From positions 390,001-454,000 of the forward strand of contig NZ_CP018822.1 in assembly GCF_002000985.1 (NCBI RefSeq): DNA of 64,000 bases. The letters are read 5' to 3'. Source of the DNA: Streptococcus gallolyticus subsp. gallolyticus DSM 16831 (GTDB lineage Bacteria; Bacillota; Bacilli; Lactobacillales; Streptococcaceae). Shown here one piece after another: positions 29,451-47,368 of the stretch. The notes below the pieces were generated by a model. It saw only the letters and a list, made by a program, of their open reading frames with translations. It was not told where the DNA came from and did not search any database. Numbering within the stretch: position 1 is the stretch's first letter; each line of letters starts with the position of its first letter. Position numbers and translations under genes: made by a program.

Positions 29451-29477
29451 TCTTGTTCTTCCTCCTTTTAAATATTT

Positions 29478-29544
29478 TTCGTTGAAACAAAAAAGAATAA
29501 TCTCCTTCCAAGCGAACTTGGCAATTCTTTTCCGTTTCAACGAA
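29478..29544 (-). promoter_or_regulatory. Long hairpin in the manL mRNA leader
   Basis: Arms 29524-29544 and 29478-29498 form a 21-bp stem (all Watson-Crick except two G-U pairs). Inside is a second stem CCAAG/CTTGG with a 4-nt loop (29508-29521). It ends about 28 nt before the manL start codon, just ahead of the AGGAGG. Confidence 0.75.
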
Positions 29545-29560
29545 ATTTAAGAACGATATT

Positions 29561-29589
29561 ATTGTAAAACGTTTTCAATAAAAAAGCAA
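29561..29589 (-). promoter_or_regulatory. manL promoter with cre-like site
   Basis: Minus strand TTGCTT (29584-29589), 17 bp, TACAAT (29561-29566). The palindrome-like TGTAAAACGTTTTCA (29563-29577) overlaps the spacer and -10 and resembles a CcpA cre site, so CcpA binding would compete with polymerase. Confidence 0.65.
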
Positions 29590-38608: not shown

Positions 38609-39403
38609 GTGACAGTATCGGATCAAGAATTGACAATGACTCCCTTGCAAGGTAAGAGTGGTAAAGCCTTTATTGGTCAATATCCAAACGGTGAAAAAAT
38701 CTTTATTAAATTGAATACGACACCGATTTTGCCTGCACTTGCTAAAGAACAGATTGCACCACAATTATTGTGGGTACGTCGAACTGGCAATGGTGATACA
38801 ATGAGTGCTCAAGAGTGGCTTGATGGTAGAATTTTGACAAAAGAGGATATGGGGAGTAAACAAATTGTCCATATTCTTTTGCGTTTGCACAAATCACGCC
38901 CTCTAGTTAATCAGCTGTTACAGTTGAACTATAAGATTGAAAATCCTTATGATTTGTTGGTGGATTGGGAAAAAAATGCCCCACTTCAAATCCAAGAGAA
39001 TACTTATCTGCAAAGTATCGTCAAAGAATTAAAACGCAGTTTACCAGAGTTTCGTTCAGAAGTTGCAACGATTGTGCATGGTGATATTAAGCATAGCAAC
39101 TGGGTCATTACGACTAGTGGTATGATTTACCTTGTTGATTGGGATTCTGTGCGATTGACAGATAGAATGTATGATGTAGCCTTTCTTTTGAGCCATTACA
39201 TTCCATATTCACGTTGGCATGAGTGGTTAAATTATTATGGTTACAAGGATAATGAGAAAGTACGCCAAAAAATTGTTTGGTACGGACAATTCTCATATCT
39301 TTCACAAATTTTAAACTGTTTTGATAAGCGTGACATGGAGCACGTGAATCAAGAAATTTATGGTTTACGAAAATTTAGGGAGTTAGTTAGTAAAAAGAAA
39401 TAA
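38609..39403 (+). CDS. ccrZ: Cell-cycle regulator CcrZ (phosphotransferase-like)
   Basis: 264 residues, the size of pneumococcal CcrZ, a regulator linking division to DnaA-driven replication. A choline/aminoglycoside-kinase-type fold: His157 and Asp159 in [10 protein letters not shown], Asn164, and Asp177 in LVDWD; these positions equal residues I recall as important in pneumococcus. The start is GTG at 38609, 8 bp after AAAGGAGG; the frame upstream to 38537 overlaps the end of ecsB and is rejected. Its stop overlaps trmB, as in other streptococci. Confidence 0.92.
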
Positions 39404-40041
39404 TGCGAGTTAGAAAACGTAAGGGTGCTGAGGAGCACTTAGAAAATAACCCACACTATGTTATTTTAAATCCAGAAGAAGCCAAAGGACGTTGGCGCGA
39501 AGTATTTGGTAATGATAATCCGATCCACATTGAAGTAGGTTCAGGAAAAGGAGCTTTCATTACTGGAATGGCTTTGCAAAATCCAGATATTAACTATATC
39601 GGAATTGACATTCAAGTATCTGTGCTTAGCTATGCTTTAGATAAAGTGTTAGATAGTCAAGCACCGAATGTTCGTTTGTTGTTAGTTGATGGCTCTGATT
39701 TGACAAATTATTTTGCAGATGGTGAGATTGATTTAATGTATTTGAATTTTTCAGATCCATGGCCGAAAAAACGTCATGAAAAACGCCGTTTAACTTATAA
39801 GACATTCTTGGATACTTACCGTCAAATTTTACCAGAACAAGGTGAAATTCATTTCAAAACGGATAACCGTGGTTTGTTTGAATACAGTTTGGCAAGTTTC
39901 TCACAATATGGCATGATTTTAAAACAAGTTTGGTTAGATCTGCATGCTAGTGATTTTGAGGGAAATGTCATGACTGAATATGAGGAAAAATTTTCTCAAA
40001 AAGGACAAGTCATTTACCGTGTTGAAGCACAATTTCAGTAA
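39403..40041 (+). CDS. trmB: tRNA (guanine-N7-)-methyltransferase TrmB
   Basis: Makes m7G46 in tRNA. 212 residues; SAM-binding [11 protein letters not shown], then YIGIDIQ, and the diagnostic [15 protein letters not shown] motif. TAATG overlap with ccrZ. Confidence 0.96.
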
Positions 40042-40082: not shown

Positions 40083-40167
40083 GGAGAGGTCGCATAGTGG
40101 TCGAGTGCGCACGCTTGGAAAGCGTGTAGTCCAATTGGGCTCGGGGGTTCGAATCCCCTCCTCTCCT
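40083..40167 (+). tRNA. tRNA-Ser (GGA)
   Basis: 85 nt with the long variable arm of class II tRNAs. Acceptor GGAGAGG/CCTCTCC, anticodon loop TTGGAAA (anticodon GGA), T arm GGGGGTTCGAATCCCCT. The discriminator position reads T rather than the usual G of bacterial tRNA-Ser, and no CCA is encoded. It is the left boundary of the exopolysaccharide cluster. Confidence 0.93.
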
Positions 40168-40272
40168 TACAAAATTGAATAGTAAAAAACGCCCTTTATT
40201 TTATAGATAATGATGTAAAAAATCAAGGCATTTTTTTGTACTCAATTATCGTAATGTTATTGAGATTTATGA

Positions 40273-40368
40273 ATGGGAAAAACTCTCACCGGAGTTAAGA
40301 AATATTTAAAAAATAACAACTATAGTTTGAATGTTTGGGAGCAAGCTGCTGGTAGTAAAACTACTTAG
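40273..40368 (+). CDS. Possible 31-codon small ORF or gene remnant
   Basis: ATG at 40273 opens a 31-codon frame (begins MGKTLTGVKKYL, ends AAGSKTT) that stops 15 bp before dgc. There is no good Shine-Dalgarno and I do not recognise the product. It could be a leader peptide, a remnant, or chance. The rest of 40168-40383 has a weak hairpin (about 40190-40240) ending in ATTTTTTTG that may terminate tRNA-Ser transcription. Confidence 0.2.
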   Translation: MGKTLTGVKKYLKNNNYSLNVWEQAAGSKTT

Positions 40369-40383
40369 AATGGTGAGGCTGTA

Positions 40384-41409
40384 ATGGTATTAGGAAAAGT
40401 AAGTGATTTTTTAATCAAGCATCAAAGATTGTTAACGTACTTAAGTATTTTTGCTGCGTTAATATTATTAATGCGCTTAGTGTATGATGATGTTTTGATT
40501 GACCATGATAATCCCATCGTTTTAGCAATCTTGATAGGAATACTAGTTCTTTGGACCCTAGCATCTTACCTTAATCGAAGACAGCATATGCTATCCCACT
40601 TTATCTTACAGAGTTCGAAACTTATTAACGTCTATGCTGTAGACTTAGATTATCGTTTTATTGCGGTTAATAAGAATGATATTCGGCTCATGGAAGAAAT
40701 CTTTTATTTCACTCCCAAAATTGGTGACTTTCCAATGAATTATCTTGATAGTGAAGATGCTGCGCGTTTAAAAGCAAATGTTGATCGTGCGAAAAAGGGT
40801 GAAACATTTACATTTATGGATACTATTAAGACAGGCGACAAAACGCTTTACTGGCAAAATATGTATTCTCCCATTTATAACAATCGCCAAAAAGTGATTG
40901 GTGTTTTTTGTTTTGTTCTTGATGTTACAGAGCAGAGACTTCATGAACTTGAAATACAGAGGATGGCATACGAAGATGTTTTAACACGGGTTCATAATCG
41001 ACGATATATTGAGCTTGCTTTTGAGGAATGTCTGACGCGTAAAGAAGAACAAATTACGGTTATTATATCTGATTTGGATAAATTCAAGGAAGCAAATGAT
41101 ACCTTTGGACATGCTACGGGGGATAAGATTCTAATTGAATTTGGTGATATTTTAACGAAGATAATGCCTGAAAGTGCTGTAATAGCAAGGTTAGGTGGAG
41201 ATGAATTTGCGGTTCTATTACCGGAAGTTTCTGAAAATCAAGCTGAATTTTTAATAAAACTTGTTCAAGCAGAAATGACTGTCAAAGATATGGGTGTCAC
41301 AGCATCTCTAGGTGCTTATACAGATTCTTATCAATCACATAAAACCTTCGTTGATTTTTGTGCAATGGCGGATAAGAAAATGTACGAAAATAAAAGTCAG
41401 AAAGGATAA
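40384..41409 (+). CDS. Membrane diguanylate cyclase (PAS-GGDEF)
   Basis: Synthesises c-di-GMP from two GTP. 341 residues: two TM helices (about 17-34 and 44-61), a PAS-like domain (about 72-186: VYAVDLDYRFIAVNK, YWQNMYSPIYNNRQKVIGVFCFVLDVTEQR), then GGDEF (about 195-338). Active features are intact: DVLTRVHNRR, metal-binding SDLDKFKEANDTFGHATGD, and LGGDEFAV at 270-277. The inhibitory I-site (RxxD at 262-265) reads PESA, so feedback inhibition is probably absent. First gene of a four-gene operon whose third product has a PilZ receptor domain. RBS GTGAGG. GGDEF proteins are rare in Streptococcus. The PAS ligand is unknown. Confidence 0.92.
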   Translation: MVLGKVSDFLIKHQRLLTYLSIFAALILLMRLVYDDVLIDHDNPIVLAILIGILVLWTLASYLNRRQHMLSHFILQSSKLINVYAVDLDYRFIAVNKNDIRLMEEIFYFTPKIGDFPMNYLDSEDAARLKANVDRAKKGETFTFMDTIKTGDKTLYWQNMYSPIYNNRQKVIGVFCFVLDVTEQRLHELEIQRMAYEDVLTRVHNRRYIELAFEECLTRKEEQITVIISDLDKFKEANDTFGHATGDKILIEFGDILTKIMPESAVIARLGGDEFAVLLPEVSENQAEFLIKLVQAEMTVKDMGVTASLGAYTDSYQSHKTFVDFCAMADKKMYENKSQKG

Positions 41410-41414
41410 AGCAG

Positions 41415-42482
41415 ATGATATATCAAGATGTTGTTATTGTTATTCCTGCCTATGAACCTGATGAACGTTTGTTGGAACTTTTGAAAAATATTCGTGACAA
41501 GGAAAATCACGCATTTGACATTGTTCTTGTTGATGACGGTAGTGGGGTGGAGTTTGCGTCGTTATTTGCAACAGCACAGAGTAACTATGCTTGTCATTTG
41601 CAAAGACACGCTGAAAATAAAGGAAAGGGTCGTGCTTTAAAAACGGCTATTTCATATATTTTGGACAATTTTCCTAATGCCAAAGGAATTGTGACGATTG
41701 ATTCTGATGGTCAACATACCTACGAAGACATGATGAAATGTTTGGCTGAATTTTTGCAACATCCTGATAGTTTGGTGCTGGGTGTTAGAACATTTGAAAA
41801 ATCTGTTCCTTTACGTAGTAAATTTGGAAATTTATTGACAAGAGACGTCTTGGGGGCTATGACAGGTATGAACGTTTCTGATACGCAAACAGGGCTTCGT
41901 GTGATTCCTATGTCATGGCTACCAAAACTCTTAACCGTGGAGGGTGAACGGTATGAATTTGAGATGAATATGTTACTTGAGGCAAAAGAGGAAAATATTC
42001 CGATTCGTGAAGTTGGTATTGCAACGATTTATTTGGATGAAAATCAGTCGTCGCATTTTGATGTGATTCGTGACTCGATTAGAATTTACAAGGTTTTCTT
42101 CAAGTACATTTTTTCATCATTGTTTTCCTTCTTGGTTGATATTGTTGCTTTTACGATTTTAATTTCTTTGTTTAATGGATTGAGTTTTAGTGCGGTGACG
42201 TTAGCTTCGATTTTAGCGCGTGCGATATCATCTGTTGTTAATTTCACCTTGAATCATAAAGTGGTCTTTAAACAAGGTCAATCAAATAGTGCGATAAAAT
42301 ACTTCACTTTGGTGGTAGTACAGATTGCTCTGTCAAGTTTATTGGTAACAGTTCTAGGAAATGCCTTGACGATGCTGCCAATTTCAGTGGTGAAGATTTT
42401 AGTTGATGGTACACTTTTCTTTGTCAGTTATTTTGTGCAAAAACATTTGATTTTTAGTGGAGGCGAGAATGAAAACCAGTAA
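41415..42482 (+). CDS. GT2 glycosyltransferase fused to a GtrA membrane domain
   Basis: 355 residues. The GT2 domain (1-225) has VVIVIPAYEPDE, VLVDDGSG and the DxD motif in TIDSDGQHTYED; it resembles dolichol/undecaprenyl-phosphate glycosyltransferases. The C-terminal GtrA domain (about 232-347, four helices: KYIFSSLFSFLVDIVAF, NFTLNHKVVFK) is linked to flipping or handling lipid-linked sugars. Likely role: making polyprenyl-phosphate-sugar for a later transferase that decorates an exported polymer. It starts 5 bp after the cyclase and overlaps the synthase gene by 14 bp. The sugar is unknown. Confidence 0.88.
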   Translation: MIYQDVVIVIPAYEPDERLLELLKNIRDKENHAFDIVLVDDGSGVEFASLFATAQSNYACHLQRHAENKGKGRALKTAISYILDNFPNAKGIVTIDSDGQHTYEDMMKCLAEFLQHPDSLVLGVRTFEKSVPLRSKFGNLLTRDVLGAMTGMNVSDTQTGLRVIPMSWLPKLLTVEGERYEFEMNMLLEAKEENIPIREVGIATIYLDENQSSHFDVIRDSIRIYKVFFKYIFSSLFSFLVDIVAFTILISLFNGLSFSAVTLASILARAISSVVNFTLNHKVVFKQGQSNSAIKYFTLVVVQIALSSLLVTVLGNALTMLPISVVKILVDGTLFFVSYFVQKHLIFSGGENENQ

Positions 42483-44694
42483 GAGGATACTCTATTTCGT
42501 TGCATTTGTAACGACTGCCTTTTATTTAACTTGGCGTTTGGTGGCGACTATTCCGTGGCATGATTCATGGTTTGCGCTGATTTTTGGGATTTTATTGTGG
42601 GGAAGTGAGGTAGTTTCAGCCATTACAGGATACATTCTCATTTGGAATAAGCAAAAGGACTTTGAGCTTGAAAAGCCTGAGATTGCTAAGGAGCGTTACC
42701 CAGATGTGGATGTTTTGATTGCAACGCATAATGAGGATCCAGAGTTGCTTTATAAGACGATTAATGCCTGCACTTTTATGGAATATCCTGATAAGTCTAA
42801 GGTGCATATCTACGTCTGTGATGATACCAATCGTCTAGAAGTTGCCAAATTGTCTGATGAGCTTGGTGTTGGTTATTTTGGTTTGGCGGATAATAAAGAT
42901 GCCAAATCAGGAAACTACAATAATGCTTTACGTCAGACGTCATCACCTTTGGTGGCGACATTTGATGCGGATATGATTCCTTATCGTGAATTCCTGTTGG
43001 AAACTGTGCCTTATTTTGTTGAACAAGTTGAGGCTTATGAAAATGGTGACGATTATGATAAGTCAAAAGTTGGTTTGATTCAAACGCCACAAAGTTTTTA
43101 CAATGCTGATATTTTCCAATTTAACTTGTTTTCAGAATCAACCTTACCAAACGAACAAGATTTCTTTTCCAAAGAAATTAATGTTTTCAATAATTCGCAC
43201 GGCGCAGCGGTTTATACGGGGTCTAATACGGTTATTTTCCGCAAGGCGATTGAAGATGTTGGTGGTTTTCCGACAGATACCATTACGGAGGATTTCGAGC
43301 TAGGTGTTCGGATGAATGCGGCTGGTTATGTAAATTATTCGACGAAAAGTCCAATGGCTAGCGGGTTAACGCCAACAGATTTGAAGAGTGTCATCAAACA
43401 GCGCGTGCGCTGGGGACGTGGCGTTATTCGCAGTAGCTACAATATGAATATCTTCTTTAATCCCAAATTGACAAAGGGGCAAAGAATTGTTTATATTAAT
43501 GGCTATCTTTACTGGTGGTCTTTCTTTAGACGGTTGTTGTATATCTTGGCGCCAATTTTATATACGGTTTTCCATGTGCGTGTGGTGGTGTCAAATATCT
43601 GGCTACTGTTCCTATTCTGGTTGCCAAGTTACGCCTTGACACGCTTGTCAATGCGAGAAGTCTCAAAACAATACCGAACACAGGTTTGGGGAGAAATTGT
43701 GGAAACGATTTTTGCTCCGTATTTGTTTATTCCCATGATGTTGGAGTCCTTTGGCATTAGCGAGAAAAAATTTAAGGTGACACGTAAGGGAAATGATACG
43801 TCGTGGACGTTGTACCTTTATGCGCTTCCTTATCTTGTTTTGTGGGGATTAGCCGTTTATGGTTTGGTGACTTTTAACTATGGAAAATTTGGTTCAGAGC
43901 TTTTTTATGGAAGTATTATCAGTTTTTGGTTGATTTATCATATTATCAATTTGACCTTTGCGATTTTCTGTGCGCTTGGTCGTCCGATTTATCGCTCAAG
44001 TGAGCGTTTTACTGTTGATGAAGCTATGGTTATTGAGGTTGATGATGATTCTTACCAAGTGAGAGTCTGTGATATTTCAGAAACGGGGATTTCATTCTAT
44101 ACGGATTTACCATTGTATTTGCCGAAAGAAAAAGAACTGACGCTTAATTTGCAATCACGTGATTACCATGCGAGAGTAAAAGGTCATGTTGTTCGTGTTT
44201 TTGCGATTGATAATGGTTGGCGCTACGGCGTTCAATTTTCAGAAGTTCCTGAAGCTGATAAGCGCGAATTTTATCAGTACATTTATGACCGCATTAATCA
44301 CAATCTTCCGAAGGAAAAAGACCCTTGGATGACAACATGGGATGATTTATTTGAGAACTTTAGTCAACGTTTCCAAAGTAATGAACGTCCTGTTTCAGCC
44401 TATGACCAAGTAGCTTTTCCGAAAGTTCGCGTCAATGAAGAGGTTCAAGTTGCTGGAAAAAAACGCCAGCTTAGAAAGACAGATTATTATTACATGACAT
44501 TTTCTGGAAAATTGACAAATCCTAAAAAAGAACCGAATGTCGCATTTACCTACAAAGATTTGCCAATTCAGTTGACTTTTGTGTCCTATGATATTGATAG
44601 AGACGAATCGCTTTATCAAGTTACCAATTTAGCGGATTTGGATAGCCTACCTGCTTTTAAAGCCTTGGCAAATGAATGGAGAGGGAGAGTATGA
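42469..44694 (+). CDS. BcsA-like processive glycan synthase with PilZ domain
   Basis: 741 residues. N-terminal helices (about 8-58), then GT2 catalytic motifs: VCDDT (118-119), FDADM (166-168), TED (273-275), QRVRW (311-315). Membrane helices follow (about 340-395 and 445-500), with the gating-loop motif FKVTRKG (435-441) known in cellulose synthase. A PilZ domain comes next (about 503-608): RPIYR (RxxxR, 505-509) and DISETG (DxSxxG, 535-540) are both intact, so c-di-GMP binding is expected. A further 130 residues at the C-terminus match nothing I know. BcsA FFCGS appears as VYTGS. No bcsB is present. The product may be cellulose, a mixed-linkage glucan or another glycan. ATG 42469 follows GGAGG. 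Confidence 0.92.
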   Translation: MKTSKRILYFVAFVTTAFYLTWRLVATIPWHDSWFALIFGILLWGSEVVSAITGYILIWNKQKDFELEKPEIAKERYPDVDVLIATHNEDPELLYKTINACTFMEYPDKSKVHIYVCDDTNRLEVAKLSDELGVGYFGLADNKDAKSGNYNNALRQTSSPLVATFDADMIPYREFLLETVPYFVEQVEAYENGDDYDKSKVGLIQTPQSFYNADIFQFNLFSESTLPNEQDFFSKEINVFNNSHGAAVYTGSNTVIFRKAIEDVGGFPTDTITEDFELGVRMNAAGYVNYSTKSPMASGLTPTDLKSVIKQRVRWGRGVIRSSYNMNIFFNPKLTKGQRIVYINGYLYWWSFFRRLLYILAPILYTVFHVRVVVSNIWLLFLFWLPSYALTRLSMREVSKQYRTQVWGEIVETIFAPYLFIPMMLESFGISEKKFKVTRKGNDTSWTLYLYALPYLVLWGLAVYGLVTFNYGKFGSELFYGSIISFWLIYHIINLTFAIFCALGRPIYRSSERFTVDEAMVIEVDDDSYQVRVCDISETGISFYTDLPLYLPKEKELTLNLQSRDYHARVKGHVVRVFAIDNGWRYGVQFSEVPEADKREFYQYIYDRINHNLPKEKDPWMTTWDDLFENFSQRFQSNERPVSAYDQVAFPKVRVNEEVQVAGKKRQLRKTDYYYMTFSGKLTNPKKEPNVAFTYKDLPIQLTFVSYDIDRDESLYQVTNLADLDSLPAFKALANEWRGRV

Positions 44695-46631
44695 TTAGTA
44701 TTGCTAGATTACTGTTGTTCTTTGTAATTACTATGGGGTATGATGCCTTTTTCCGTAATACTGTGAAGATGAATCGTCGTTTGACATGGGTGTTTACATT
44801 TTCGGTCATTACATTGGTATTGTACCTTGGTAGTTTGTTAGGCTTTATGTTGCAGACTGTGTATGCCATTTCTGTTTTAGGCTGTCTTTTGAGTCTTTAT
44901 TATCTTTGGGCGGTATGGAAAAAGAAATATCGCTTTAGGAGACTTGATTATATTGCGCTTGGAATGATGGCTTATTTGCTTTTGTTTGGAATAACGCTCT
45001 GGCATTCACCGCTTTTACATTATGATAATTTTACGCATTGGGCAACGATTGTAAAATTTTTCCATATCAATAATGCTTTGCCAACACAGCAGGATACGAT
45101 TATTAGTTATTATACCTATCCTGTTGGAAGTTCACTTTTCATTTATTTTTTCACGACTATCGTAGGCTTTTCAGAAGGCAGTATGTTGGTCGGGCAATTC
45201 TTCTTGATTGCTTCATCTCTTTATGCCATGTTTGCAGCACTTCGTGATGATCGACGTGTCTTAATGGTTAGCATGATTTTTGCTTCGTTTGCTGTTTTTA
45301 ATACGTTCAACGTTGCTATTCGATTAAATAATTTGCTGGTTGATTTTCTGCTTCCAGCCTTGGCCTTGGCAGCCATAGCAGGTTGTTTTGCCTATCGTAA
45401 TCGTTTCTGTTTTTTGTCGCTAAATACGGCGGTAATTCTTGGATTATTAAGTATCGTCAAAGTAAGTGGACTTTTCTTTGTCGCTCTCGTTTTAGTAGCT
45501 TATGTGGTTTGTATTGTGCGTTTACTTGTTCGTAAAAGAGCACGCTTAAAAGCACTAGTGCTGCTCATAATGACCTTGCTAGTCAGCTTTCTTCCCTTTG
45601 TTATTTGGCAAAAGCACGTGACGGATAATTTCCCAAATGCCTCAAGTGCCAAGCATGCGGTGTCCATGTCAGAACTTGGTCAGGTATTGACTGGGAATCT
45701 GTCAGGCGACCCACAAAAAATTATCACTCTTTTTGTCAAATCGGTGTTTACGTTTGACAGTTTGGCAAGCAATGGAATTTTGATAATCAATCTGATTATG
45801 CTGATTGCCTTTATTGTGATTGGCATTCGTTTGAAACATAAGAAATTTGTCTTGTTGACATGGGGATTTGTTAATATTTCGATTGTGACTTACTATATTG
45901 GCATTTTACTCATGTATTTGACAGCAATGCCGACTGATGAAGCGTTAGAATTAGCAGGATTTGAGCGCTATGCTTCGAGCATCGTTATCTTTGCTTTTGG
46001 TTGTTTGACCATGGCTTTAGCATGGGTAATGGACAAGTGTCTGTATGAAAAAATCATTAGTAAACGTAATGCTAGGTCTTACAAGAGCTTATTTAATAAA
46101 CGCTTGTACCAATATGTGAGCCTTGTTTTGACAGTTTATGCCATTGGAATGTTCTTGTCAGAAAATAATAGCATTGTTTACAATAACAATCAGGAAACAA
46201 ACGAGGTCGCAAAAGAAATTCATCAGCTTACTGGAAGTCAGAGTGATTCGTCAACGGATAGAATTTTGGTTGTAACAGCAGACAAGGAGAATGTAGATAG
46301 TTATTTTGTCCAATATGCTAGTCGTTATTATCTGTGGGATGTCAATGTTGATGCCAGAGAAAATTTTGTGTCGGCTGACCAAGAATTTTTAGATTTAATG
46401 GCATCATACAGCGACAGCGCAACAAGTTATTACCTCTGGAATGAAAATATCGATACTAGAGATGATTTCAATTTAACAGACGATGACTTTATTGCACTCT
46501 TAAAAACATATGACGAAGTCTTGATTTTAGATGACCATTATACGTTTAATGCCTTGACGAAAAAGCTTTTCGGTCGGACATATTCCCCAGGATTGTATAA
46601 AGTATCAGATATTCTTGCTGGAAAAGGGTAA
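44691..46631 (+). CDS. Large polytopic membrane protein, GT-C-like
   Basis: 646 residues with about a dozen hydrophobic helices through residue 490, then a soluble extracytoplasmic or C-terminal part (about 495-646) with two similar segments, YYLWDVNVDARENF and YYLWNENIDTRDDF. The first long loop carries LHYDNFTHWATI, an acidic/aromatic layout common in GT-C transferases that use polyprenyl-phosphate sugars. No closer family recognised. The start ATG 44691 overlaps the synthase stop (ATGA). Inferred role: transfer of the sugar made by the GT2-GtrA protein onto the polymer outside the cell, or export. Confidence 0.75.
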   Translation: MISIARLLLFFVITMGYDAFFRNTVKMNRRLTWVFTFSVITLVLYLGSLLGFMLQTVYAISVLGCLLSLYYLWAVWKKKYRFRRLDYIALGMMAYLLLFGITLWHSPLLHYDNFTHWATIVKFFHINNALPTQQDTIISYYTYPVGSSLFIYFFTTIVGFSEGSMLVGQFFLIASSLYAMFAALRDDRRVLMVSMIFASFAVFNTFNVAIRLNNLLVDFLLPALALAAIAGCFAYRNRFCFLSLNTAVILGLLSIVKVSGLFFVALVLVAYVVCIVRLLVRKRARLKALVLLIMTLLVSFLPFVIWQKHVTDNFPNASSAKHAVSMSELGQVLTGNLSGDPQKIITLFVKSVFTFDSLASNGILIINLIMLIAFIVIGIRLKHKKFVLLTWGFVNISIVTYYIGILLMYLTAMPTDEALELAGFERYASSIVIFAFGCLTMALAWVMDKCLYEKIISKRNARSYKSLFNKRLYQYVSLVLTVYAIGMFLSENNSIVYNNNQETNEVAKEIHQLTGSQSDSSTDRILVVTADKENVDSYFVQYASRYYLWDVNVDARENFVSADQEFLDLMASYSDSATSYYLWNENIDTRDDFNLTDDDFIALLKTYDEVLILDDHYTFNALTKKLFGRTYSPGLYKVSDILAGKG

Positions 46632-46684: not shown

Positions 46685-46882
46685 TATAATAAAAAATATG
46701 TAGAAGGAGGCGGAGTTTGTGACTTCGCCTCTTGTGGTGCTTAAATCTCATTTTAGCTAAAAAGGCTAGTGATTACATGAGATTAGGAGCGAAGTTCTAC
46801 GATGAGACGCTACAAGTCCACTTCGTAGAAGTGAATGAGCGTAGTGAACTTTCTATTTTTGATTTTGAAGATAAAGGAGGGG
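46685..46882 (+). promoter_or_regulatory. Promoter and structured leader of the rimP-nusA-infB operon
   Basis: TATAAT (46685-46690; no well-spaced -35) begins a leader of nearly 190 nt with three hairpins: 46707-46715 with 46723-46731 (GAGGCGGAG/CTTCGCCTC), 46744-46751 with 46777-46784 (AATCTCAT/ATGAGATT, inner TAGC/GCTA), and 46795-46802 with 46823-46830 (TTCTACGA/TCGTAGAA). No T run follows any of them. The leader ends in AAAGGAGG before rimP. Confidence 0.6.
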
Positions 46883-46888
46883 ATTCTT

Positions 46889-47368
46889 ATCGCAAACGCA
46901 AATACAATCATTGATGTTGTTACAGAAGTGGTTGCACCAGCTATTAAAGAGCCGTTTGAATTGGTTGATGTCGAGTATGAGAAAATGGGGAGCGATTATG
47001 TGCTTAGCATTTTAATTGACAAACCAGAAGGGATTACGGTAGATGATACAGCAGAGTTGACTGAAATTATCAGCCCTTTGCTTGATGCGATTAAACCAGA
47101 CCCATTTCCAGAGCAGTATATGTTGGAAGTGTCTAGCCCTGGTTTAGAGCGTCCGTTAAAAACGAAAGAAGCTCTTGAAAAAGCTGTAGGTTCTTATGTC
47201 AATGTTAGTCTCTACAAAGCGATTGATAAAGTTAAGGTATTCCAAGGGGACCTTGTTGCTTTTGACGGTGACACATTGACCATTGATTATTTGGATAAAA
47301 CGCGGAAAAAAACAGTTGAAATTCCGTATTCGACAGTTGCAAAAGCGCGTTTGGCAGTGAAATTGTAG
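46889..47368 (+). CDS. rimP: Ribosome maturation factor RimP
   Basis: Assists 30S subunit maturation. About 159 residues from the chosen start; family core [39 protein letters not shown] and [11 protein letters not shown] is complete. The strong AAAGGAGG at 46873-46880 is not followed by any ATG, GTG or TTG: the in-frame codons are ATT (46883), CTT, ATC (46889). ATC has ideal spacing (8 bp), so a non-canonical AUC or AUU start is proposed. The first canonical in-frame start upstream, ATG 46835, lacks a ribosome binding site and would add leader-encoded residues. Confidence 0.85.

Follow-up and report, generated by a model that had tools for sequence, protein, structure and literature searches.

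A cyclic di-GMP module of Streptococcus gallolyticus with a BcsA-like synthase and a fourth protein of predicted GT-C fold

The window analyzed was a stretch of 64,000 nucleotides (nt) of Streptococcus gallolyticus subsp. gallolyticus DSM 16831 (contig NZ_CP018822.1, positions 390,001 to 454,000), in which an operon of four open reading frames (ORF), all on the + strand, filled positions 40384-46631 (Table 1). They encoded a diguanylate cyclase, a fusion of a family 2 glycosyltransferase (GT2) with a GtrA domain, a BcsA-like synthase with a PilZ domain, and a membrane protein (ORF4) of predicted GT-C fold. A 5-nt gap separated the first two genes, and the next two junctions were overlaps of 14 nt (with the ATG start of the synthase; 26 nt with GTG) and 19 nt, which confirmed the four coupled genes of an earlier reading made from the letters of the DNA (hereafter, the sequence-only reading); every gene assignment of that reading was upheld by Pfam, NCBIfam, motifs or predicted fold. 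The ratio of nonsynonymous to synonymous substitution rates (dN/dS) against S. equinus was 0.057-0.130 for the four genes, a rough estimate since dS was 1.4-2.3 and near saturation; these low values indicated genes under purifying selection and not chance frames. The gene set looks like a complete switch and machinery by which a sugar polymer of the cell surface is produced, and probably decorated, by some streptococci in response to cyclic di-GMP (c-di-GMP).

Table 1. Positions in the window of the operon, its motifs and its borders (aa, amino acids).
Feature	Positions	Strand	Remarks
trmB	39403..40041	+	5' border of site; PF02390 match, a family taken by us to be trmB
tRNA-Ser(GGA)	40083..40167	+	5' side of operon site
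Moved segment	40345..46745	+	same two ends in the copies of three genomes (L050, L051, L053)
Diguanylate cyclase gene	40384..41409	+	341 aa; PAS_4 residues 83-185, GGDEF domain 195-340
GGDEF signature, intact	41194..41208	+	cyclase residues 271-275
GT2-GtrA fusion	41415..42482	+	355 aa; GT2 residues 8-137, GtrA residues 230-347
BcsA-like membrane synthase	42457..44694	+	745 aa from GTG 42457; 741 aa from ATG 42469
QRVRW motif	43399..43413	+	synthase
Gating-loop motif FKVTRK (FxVTxK)	43771..43788	+	synthase
PilZ domain	43993..44286	+	Pfam; RxxxR 43993-44007, DxSxxG 44071-44088
Synthase C-terminal region	44419..44691	+	predicted second, six-stranded beta domain
Membrane glycosyltransferase of predicted GT-C fold (ORF4)	44676..46631	+	651 aa
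Conserved loop HYDNFTHW	45018..45041	+	fourth protein
rimP, longest frame	46835..47368	+	3' border of site; Pfam

The cyclase matched GGDEF (E 1.6e-32) and PAS_4 (E 4.5e-11) of Pfam, and a crude hydropathy scan gave two N-terminal hydrophobic segments (residues 15-33 and 37-55), so that the membrane PAS-GGDEF cyclase of the sequence-only reading was borne out. A presumed site of the DxD type (DLDKF) was present along with the intact GGDEF signature. No RxxD was found upstream of GGDEF at the place where the I-site would presumably lie, and PESA stood there instead. The second protein matched Glycos_transf_2 (E 4.2e-15) and GtrA_DPMS_TM (PF04138; E 9.6e-10), again as had been read. With a GT2 domain of the DPMS kind and a GtrA domain in one protein, it is, judged by its domains, probably a polyprenyl-phosphate sugar synthase joined to a putative flippase.

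The synthase matched Glyco_trans_2_3 (E 1.3e-20) and PilZ (E 3.1e-15), and contained FDAD, TED, QRVRW, which we take to be the motif of processive GT2 synthases, and FKVTRK, presumably the gating loop by analogy with BcsA structures. Both PilZ motifs were intact (RxxxR as RSSER, DxSxxG as DISETG), in agreement with the PilZ receptor claimed previously. With residues numbered from 42472 (one lower than from the ATG), R504, R508, R512, S536 and G539 were invariant in 35 aligned synthases, and position 534 was D in 20 and N in 15. Structure prediction gave the synthase a BcsA fold, and it shared with BcsA of E. coli and Rhodobacter this fold, FDAD/TED/QxxRW, the FxVT gating loop and a C-terminal PilZ domain with RxxxR and DxSxxG, but differed from it by an identity of about 25%, by the lack of BcsB, BcsC and BcsZ among the four genes, and by having an extra C-terminal domain and its own cyclase and decoration genes in a row. 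The extra domain occurred in synthases of 732-761 aa and was missing from the aligned forms of 640-671 aa. Residues 640-740 as a recognizable second PilZ domain were not supported (hhalign probability 3.3%), and we know of no family for this beta domain.

The fourth protein had no Pfam match at E 0.1 and no NCBIfam match, and its sequence hit no solved structure in a search. Its predicted structure makes it likely a glycosyltransferase of the GT-C fold, which now backs the "GT-C-like" label given from the sequence. Residues H115, D117, N118 and W122 of the HYDNFTHW loop were invariant in 35 of 35 aligned proteins, and D117 is by this conservation a candidate catalytic acid. A crude hydropathy scan gave 13 hydrophobic segments, and the count published for the fourth protein of the module is 16 predicted transmembrane helices. 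A GT-C label for the fourth gene was not found in the literature searched, as far as the texts were available; Liu et al. 2020 lay outside that search.

The genome (one contig, 2.49 Mb) had one GGDEF match and one PilZ match, which, together with no match to EAL or HD_5, fits the statement of the sequence-only reading that producer, receptor and machinery are in one operon. Four DHH matches were found, and by their length two of these proteins could be of the GdpP and DhhP/NrnA types; cleavage of c-di-GMP by either is unsupported. DhhP is called promiscuous between c-di-AMP and pApA in a passage of PMC10243994 which is silent on c-di-GMP.

The earlier suspicion that the module might be partly known was correct but understated: publications already cover the four genes as a module, the site they occupy and their transfer into Streptococcus, so that the finding is already known, and the idea of a module as yet undescribed was rejected on the existence of these descriptions. 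The part of PMC10333796 available attributes the module to Liu et al. 2020 and mentions horizontal transfer, a low identity between cyclases and extra enzymes of S. henryi. The genes are gallo_0364-0367 in S. gallolyticus, and the locus is given, in the available part of PMC12445087, as putative hemicellulose genes in 40 strains, a few of them with inactivating changes. As far as these partial sources go, the published module comprises a PAS-GGDEF cyclase, a Dpm1-GtrA hybrid, a cellulose synthase-like protein and a polytopic membrane protein. The same four kinds, the same site (tRNA-Ser between trmB and rimP) and the same species group were found here, with no difference in kind, the fourth protein being here given a GT-C fold. 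The four genes are this module, which probably operates by the mechanism proposed below. Added here are the GT-C reading, a core common to several families, the case of one genome lacking GGDEF (G382) and the observation that copies of the moving segment end at the same points; the main additions concern the likely job of the fourth gene and how the module spreads.

In the proposed scheme, a membrane or PAS signal would lead the cyclase to make c-di-GMP, which would bind the PilZ domain and free the gating loop, the opening of which is the BcsA mechanism (PMC8461298, in the part available). The freed synthase would then build a beta-linked glycan and export it. Meanwhile a sugar would be loaded onto undecaprenyl phosphate and flipped by the GT2-GtrA protein, and the GT-C protein would transfer the flipped sugar onto the emerging glycan, a side-sugar addition by a GT-A/GtrA/GT-C type of system (PMC8035078, in the part available). 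The polymer would be cellulose-like or another beta-glycan with side sugars. The scheme rests on homology and is supported in that it fits the data. Should the fourth gene encode a GT-C transferase, a branched polymer is expected, which would open a surface glycan of S. gallolyticus and related species to a direct experiment. It is quite unlikely that the GT2-GtrA and GT-C proteins make instead a lipid-linked primer for the glycan or anchor it in the membrane. The donors of GT-C enzymes are polyprenyl-linked and there is no separate anchoring protein among the four genes, both of which would suit that role; yet BcsA-type synthases are not known to require a lipid primer. The characterized GT-C enzymes that partner with GtrA proteins attach side sugars to polymers outside the membrane (PMC8035078, in the part available).

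The survey of the operon across streptococci that had been proposed as a check was done in a sample of 247 Streptococcus genomes. GGDEF was above the cut-off in 14, and a fifteenth (G142) had a weak match in a 661-aa frame at an apparent gdpP locus. A relative of the synthase (at least 54% identity) was present in 13 genomes, all among the 14 with GGDEF, and 52 further genomes had only weak synthase matches (<30% identity). PilZ was found in 11 genomes, always inside the synthase; the synthase genomes with no PilZ match had a stop in the gene (G139) or a contig end (G224). EAL was above the cut-off in 3 genomes (G078, G148, G198) and weak in 2 more, which left 11 of the 13 synthase genomes with no EAL over the cut-off. 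In G148 (L062), the one GGDEF genome outside these 13, the trmB-rimP site held a lone cyclase, and additional GGDEF and EAL genes lay in other parts of the genome. Broken copies of the operon occurred in G139, G058 and G198. The first is the nearest relative by this region in the sample (flanking proteins 94-99% identical), and it had the cyclase and GT2-GtrA genes in pieces, the synthase cut and only residues 574-651 of the fourth protein. The locus of S. gallolyticus subsp. macedonicus is described as similarly broken, and that of subsp. gallolyticus as conserved (PMC12445087, in the part available).

In G114, G187 (S. rubneri) and G181 (S. vestibularis) the operon was away from trmB-rimP, with about 97% DNA identity; S. 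rubneri and S. vestibularis are mouth dwellers. The flanks of the moved copies agreed past both ends of the segment, by 32-616 bases upstream and 184-440 bases downstream depending on the pair, which makes one event followed by spread likelier than three events. Upstream lay a truncated 80-aa frame ending just before the cyclase, PfkB-like by comparison with the metagenomic protein P0241, which joins PfkB to the cyclase, a fusion that the left junction of the moved copies predicts. A piece with matches to Epimerase_2 and the DeoR C-terminal domain was found at the left junction of L050 (4800-5682), and transposase genes at L050 and L051 (none tested in L053). Only 39 bases 5' of the first ATG were included in the moved segment, and the operon may be read from a foreign promoter in its new hosts. 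The dN/dS of the recent moved copies (0.18-0.36) was above the values between old lineages. At the native site of G096, the GT2-GtrA, synthase and GT-C genes were close to those of the window (dS 0.05-0.10), with a cyclase dS of 0.27 and diverged flanks (0.34-0.44). Against S. equinus, dS was 1.4-2.3 in the operon versus 0.41-0.56 in the flanks, a contrast qualified by codon bias, which lowers the dS of flanking genes. Swapping of operon alleles would explain both patterns.

Across Lactobacillales, the ORF4 profile matched 38 of 345 genomes. Eighty genomes were tested, namely the 33 non-Streptococcus genomes among those 38 and 47 with no match, picked by handle number. A strong synthase (>600 bits) was present in 20 of the 33 and in none of the 47, the 20 spanning five families (f2, f3, f4, f6, f9). 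GGDEF (E <=0.001) was found in 53 of the 80 genomes: 19 of the 20 with a strong synthase, 29 of the 47 without ORF4, and 5 of the 13 that had ORF4 but no strong synthase. The only strong-synthase genome with no GGDEF was G382, whose synthase (L115 10718-12640) kept the synthase fold domain and had no Pfam PilZ match; three other short synthases of its family did have one. Among 15 aligned non-streptococcal synthases, that of G382 alone lacked RxxxR and [DN]xSxxG. Read from these motifs, this exception would say more than the GGDEF tally, yet it is a single case.

These results bear on whether the cyclase is inactive or acts on a different receptor, with the synthase driven by substrate supply alone, which is very improbable. 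An intact PilZ motif is no proof of binding, and short f9 synthases with PilZ had no cyclase gene beside them (L117, L118, L121; L119 begins at a contig end), but their genomes had GGDEF elsewhere. Moreover, the genome studied has one GGDEF and one PilZ, GGDEF accompanied the Streptococcus synthase in 13 of 13 genomes, and PilZ was lost in the sole synthase genome free of GGDEF, all of which count against this reading.

The GT2-GtrA gene adjoined the synthase in 12 of the 15 non-streptococcal loci (L119 starts at a contig end), and cyclase and small EAL genes were found by BLAST in the fetched stretch at 5 of the 15 (L106, L107, L108, L110, L111). Two tandem ORF4 genes followed one synthase at L117 and L119, as would suit the addition of two different side sugars. 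At L122, L123 and L124, ORF4 relatives lay near GT2-GtrA genes with no synthase in the stretch, so that the two decoration proteins may act on other polymers as well. That the pair decorates such a polymer (rhamnan, teichoic acid) in S. gallolyticus too, merely traveling with a synthase whose product is a plain homopolymer, is regarded as unlikely. These three loci fit it, and characterized GT-A/GtrA/GT-C systems target teichoic acids and wall polysaccharides (PMC8035078, in the part available), but the overlapping genes, the same three-gene row in other families, the strong synthase only in ORF4 genomes among the 80 tested and the movement of the four genes as one segment all count against it.

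Several results weigh against a c-di-GMP-gated, decorated beta-glycan. The synthase scored 336 bits against TIGR03030 (CelA; residues 6-609), below the curated cut-off of 699 (NCBIfam), and was thus labelled BcsA-like and not filed as a cellulose synthase; no BcsB-like protein was found in the operon, the search for BcsB being limited to its four genes. Foldseek alone gave only a moderate GT-C match for the fourth protein (E 9.5e-5; TM 0.40-0.52). The genome had no EAL (PF00563) and no HD_5 (PF13487) match, these being the only two phosphodiesterase families searched. In the order, GGDEF is common even in ORF4-free genomes and the genomes share ancestry, so that the tally of 19 of 20 is weak by itself; five of the 20 strong synthases were left out of the alignment; two of the 47 ORF4-free genomes carried a synthase of lower similarity (37% identity, about 300 bits); and the GT2-GtrA gene was not beside the synthase in L108 and L112.

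Chances are about even that several Lactobacillales families share a class of glycans gated by c-di-GMP and decorated with branches, of which the module would be the Streptococcus representative. Such glycans would be made by a BcsA-like synthase coupled to a dedicated GT-A/GtrA/GT-C set that adds sugars to the chain during its export; in most Streptococcus carriers the circuit would be cut down to one cyclase and one receptor with no known phosphodiesterase, and it would be mobile between species as a 6.4-kb unit. By description only, the module can be likened to Pss of Listeria, a c-di-GMP-controlled exopolysaccharide synthase of a Gram-positive whose receptor is a degenerate GGDEF protein and not PilZ. 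The lactic acid bacterium Lactobacillus acidophilus (dgcA-pdeA and gts operons) likewise combines a single cyclase with a BcsA-like synthase, and its gtsA-gtsB increased Congo red binding and biofilm in E. coli; unlike here, PdeB, a degenerate EAL protein, acts as the receptor, the cyclase and synthase genes belong to different operons, and the system includes a phosphodiesterase (PMC6123363, in the part available). CsbB-GtcA-YfhO and GtlA-GtcA-GtlB have the same three enzyme kinds as here with a teichoic acid or rhamnan pathway as partner, whereas here GT-A and GtrA are fused and the partner is a processive synthase (PMC8035078, in the part available).

The interval from tRNA-Ser to the cyclase gene (40168-40384) contained no sigma-70-like site of 9/12 on the + strand. 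An Rfam search at the gathering threshold, which covered the whole window and no other part of the genome, gave neither a riboswitch nor another regulatory RNA close to the operon. The Streptococcus small RNA SSRC34 was located at 29451-29577 on the - strand of the window.
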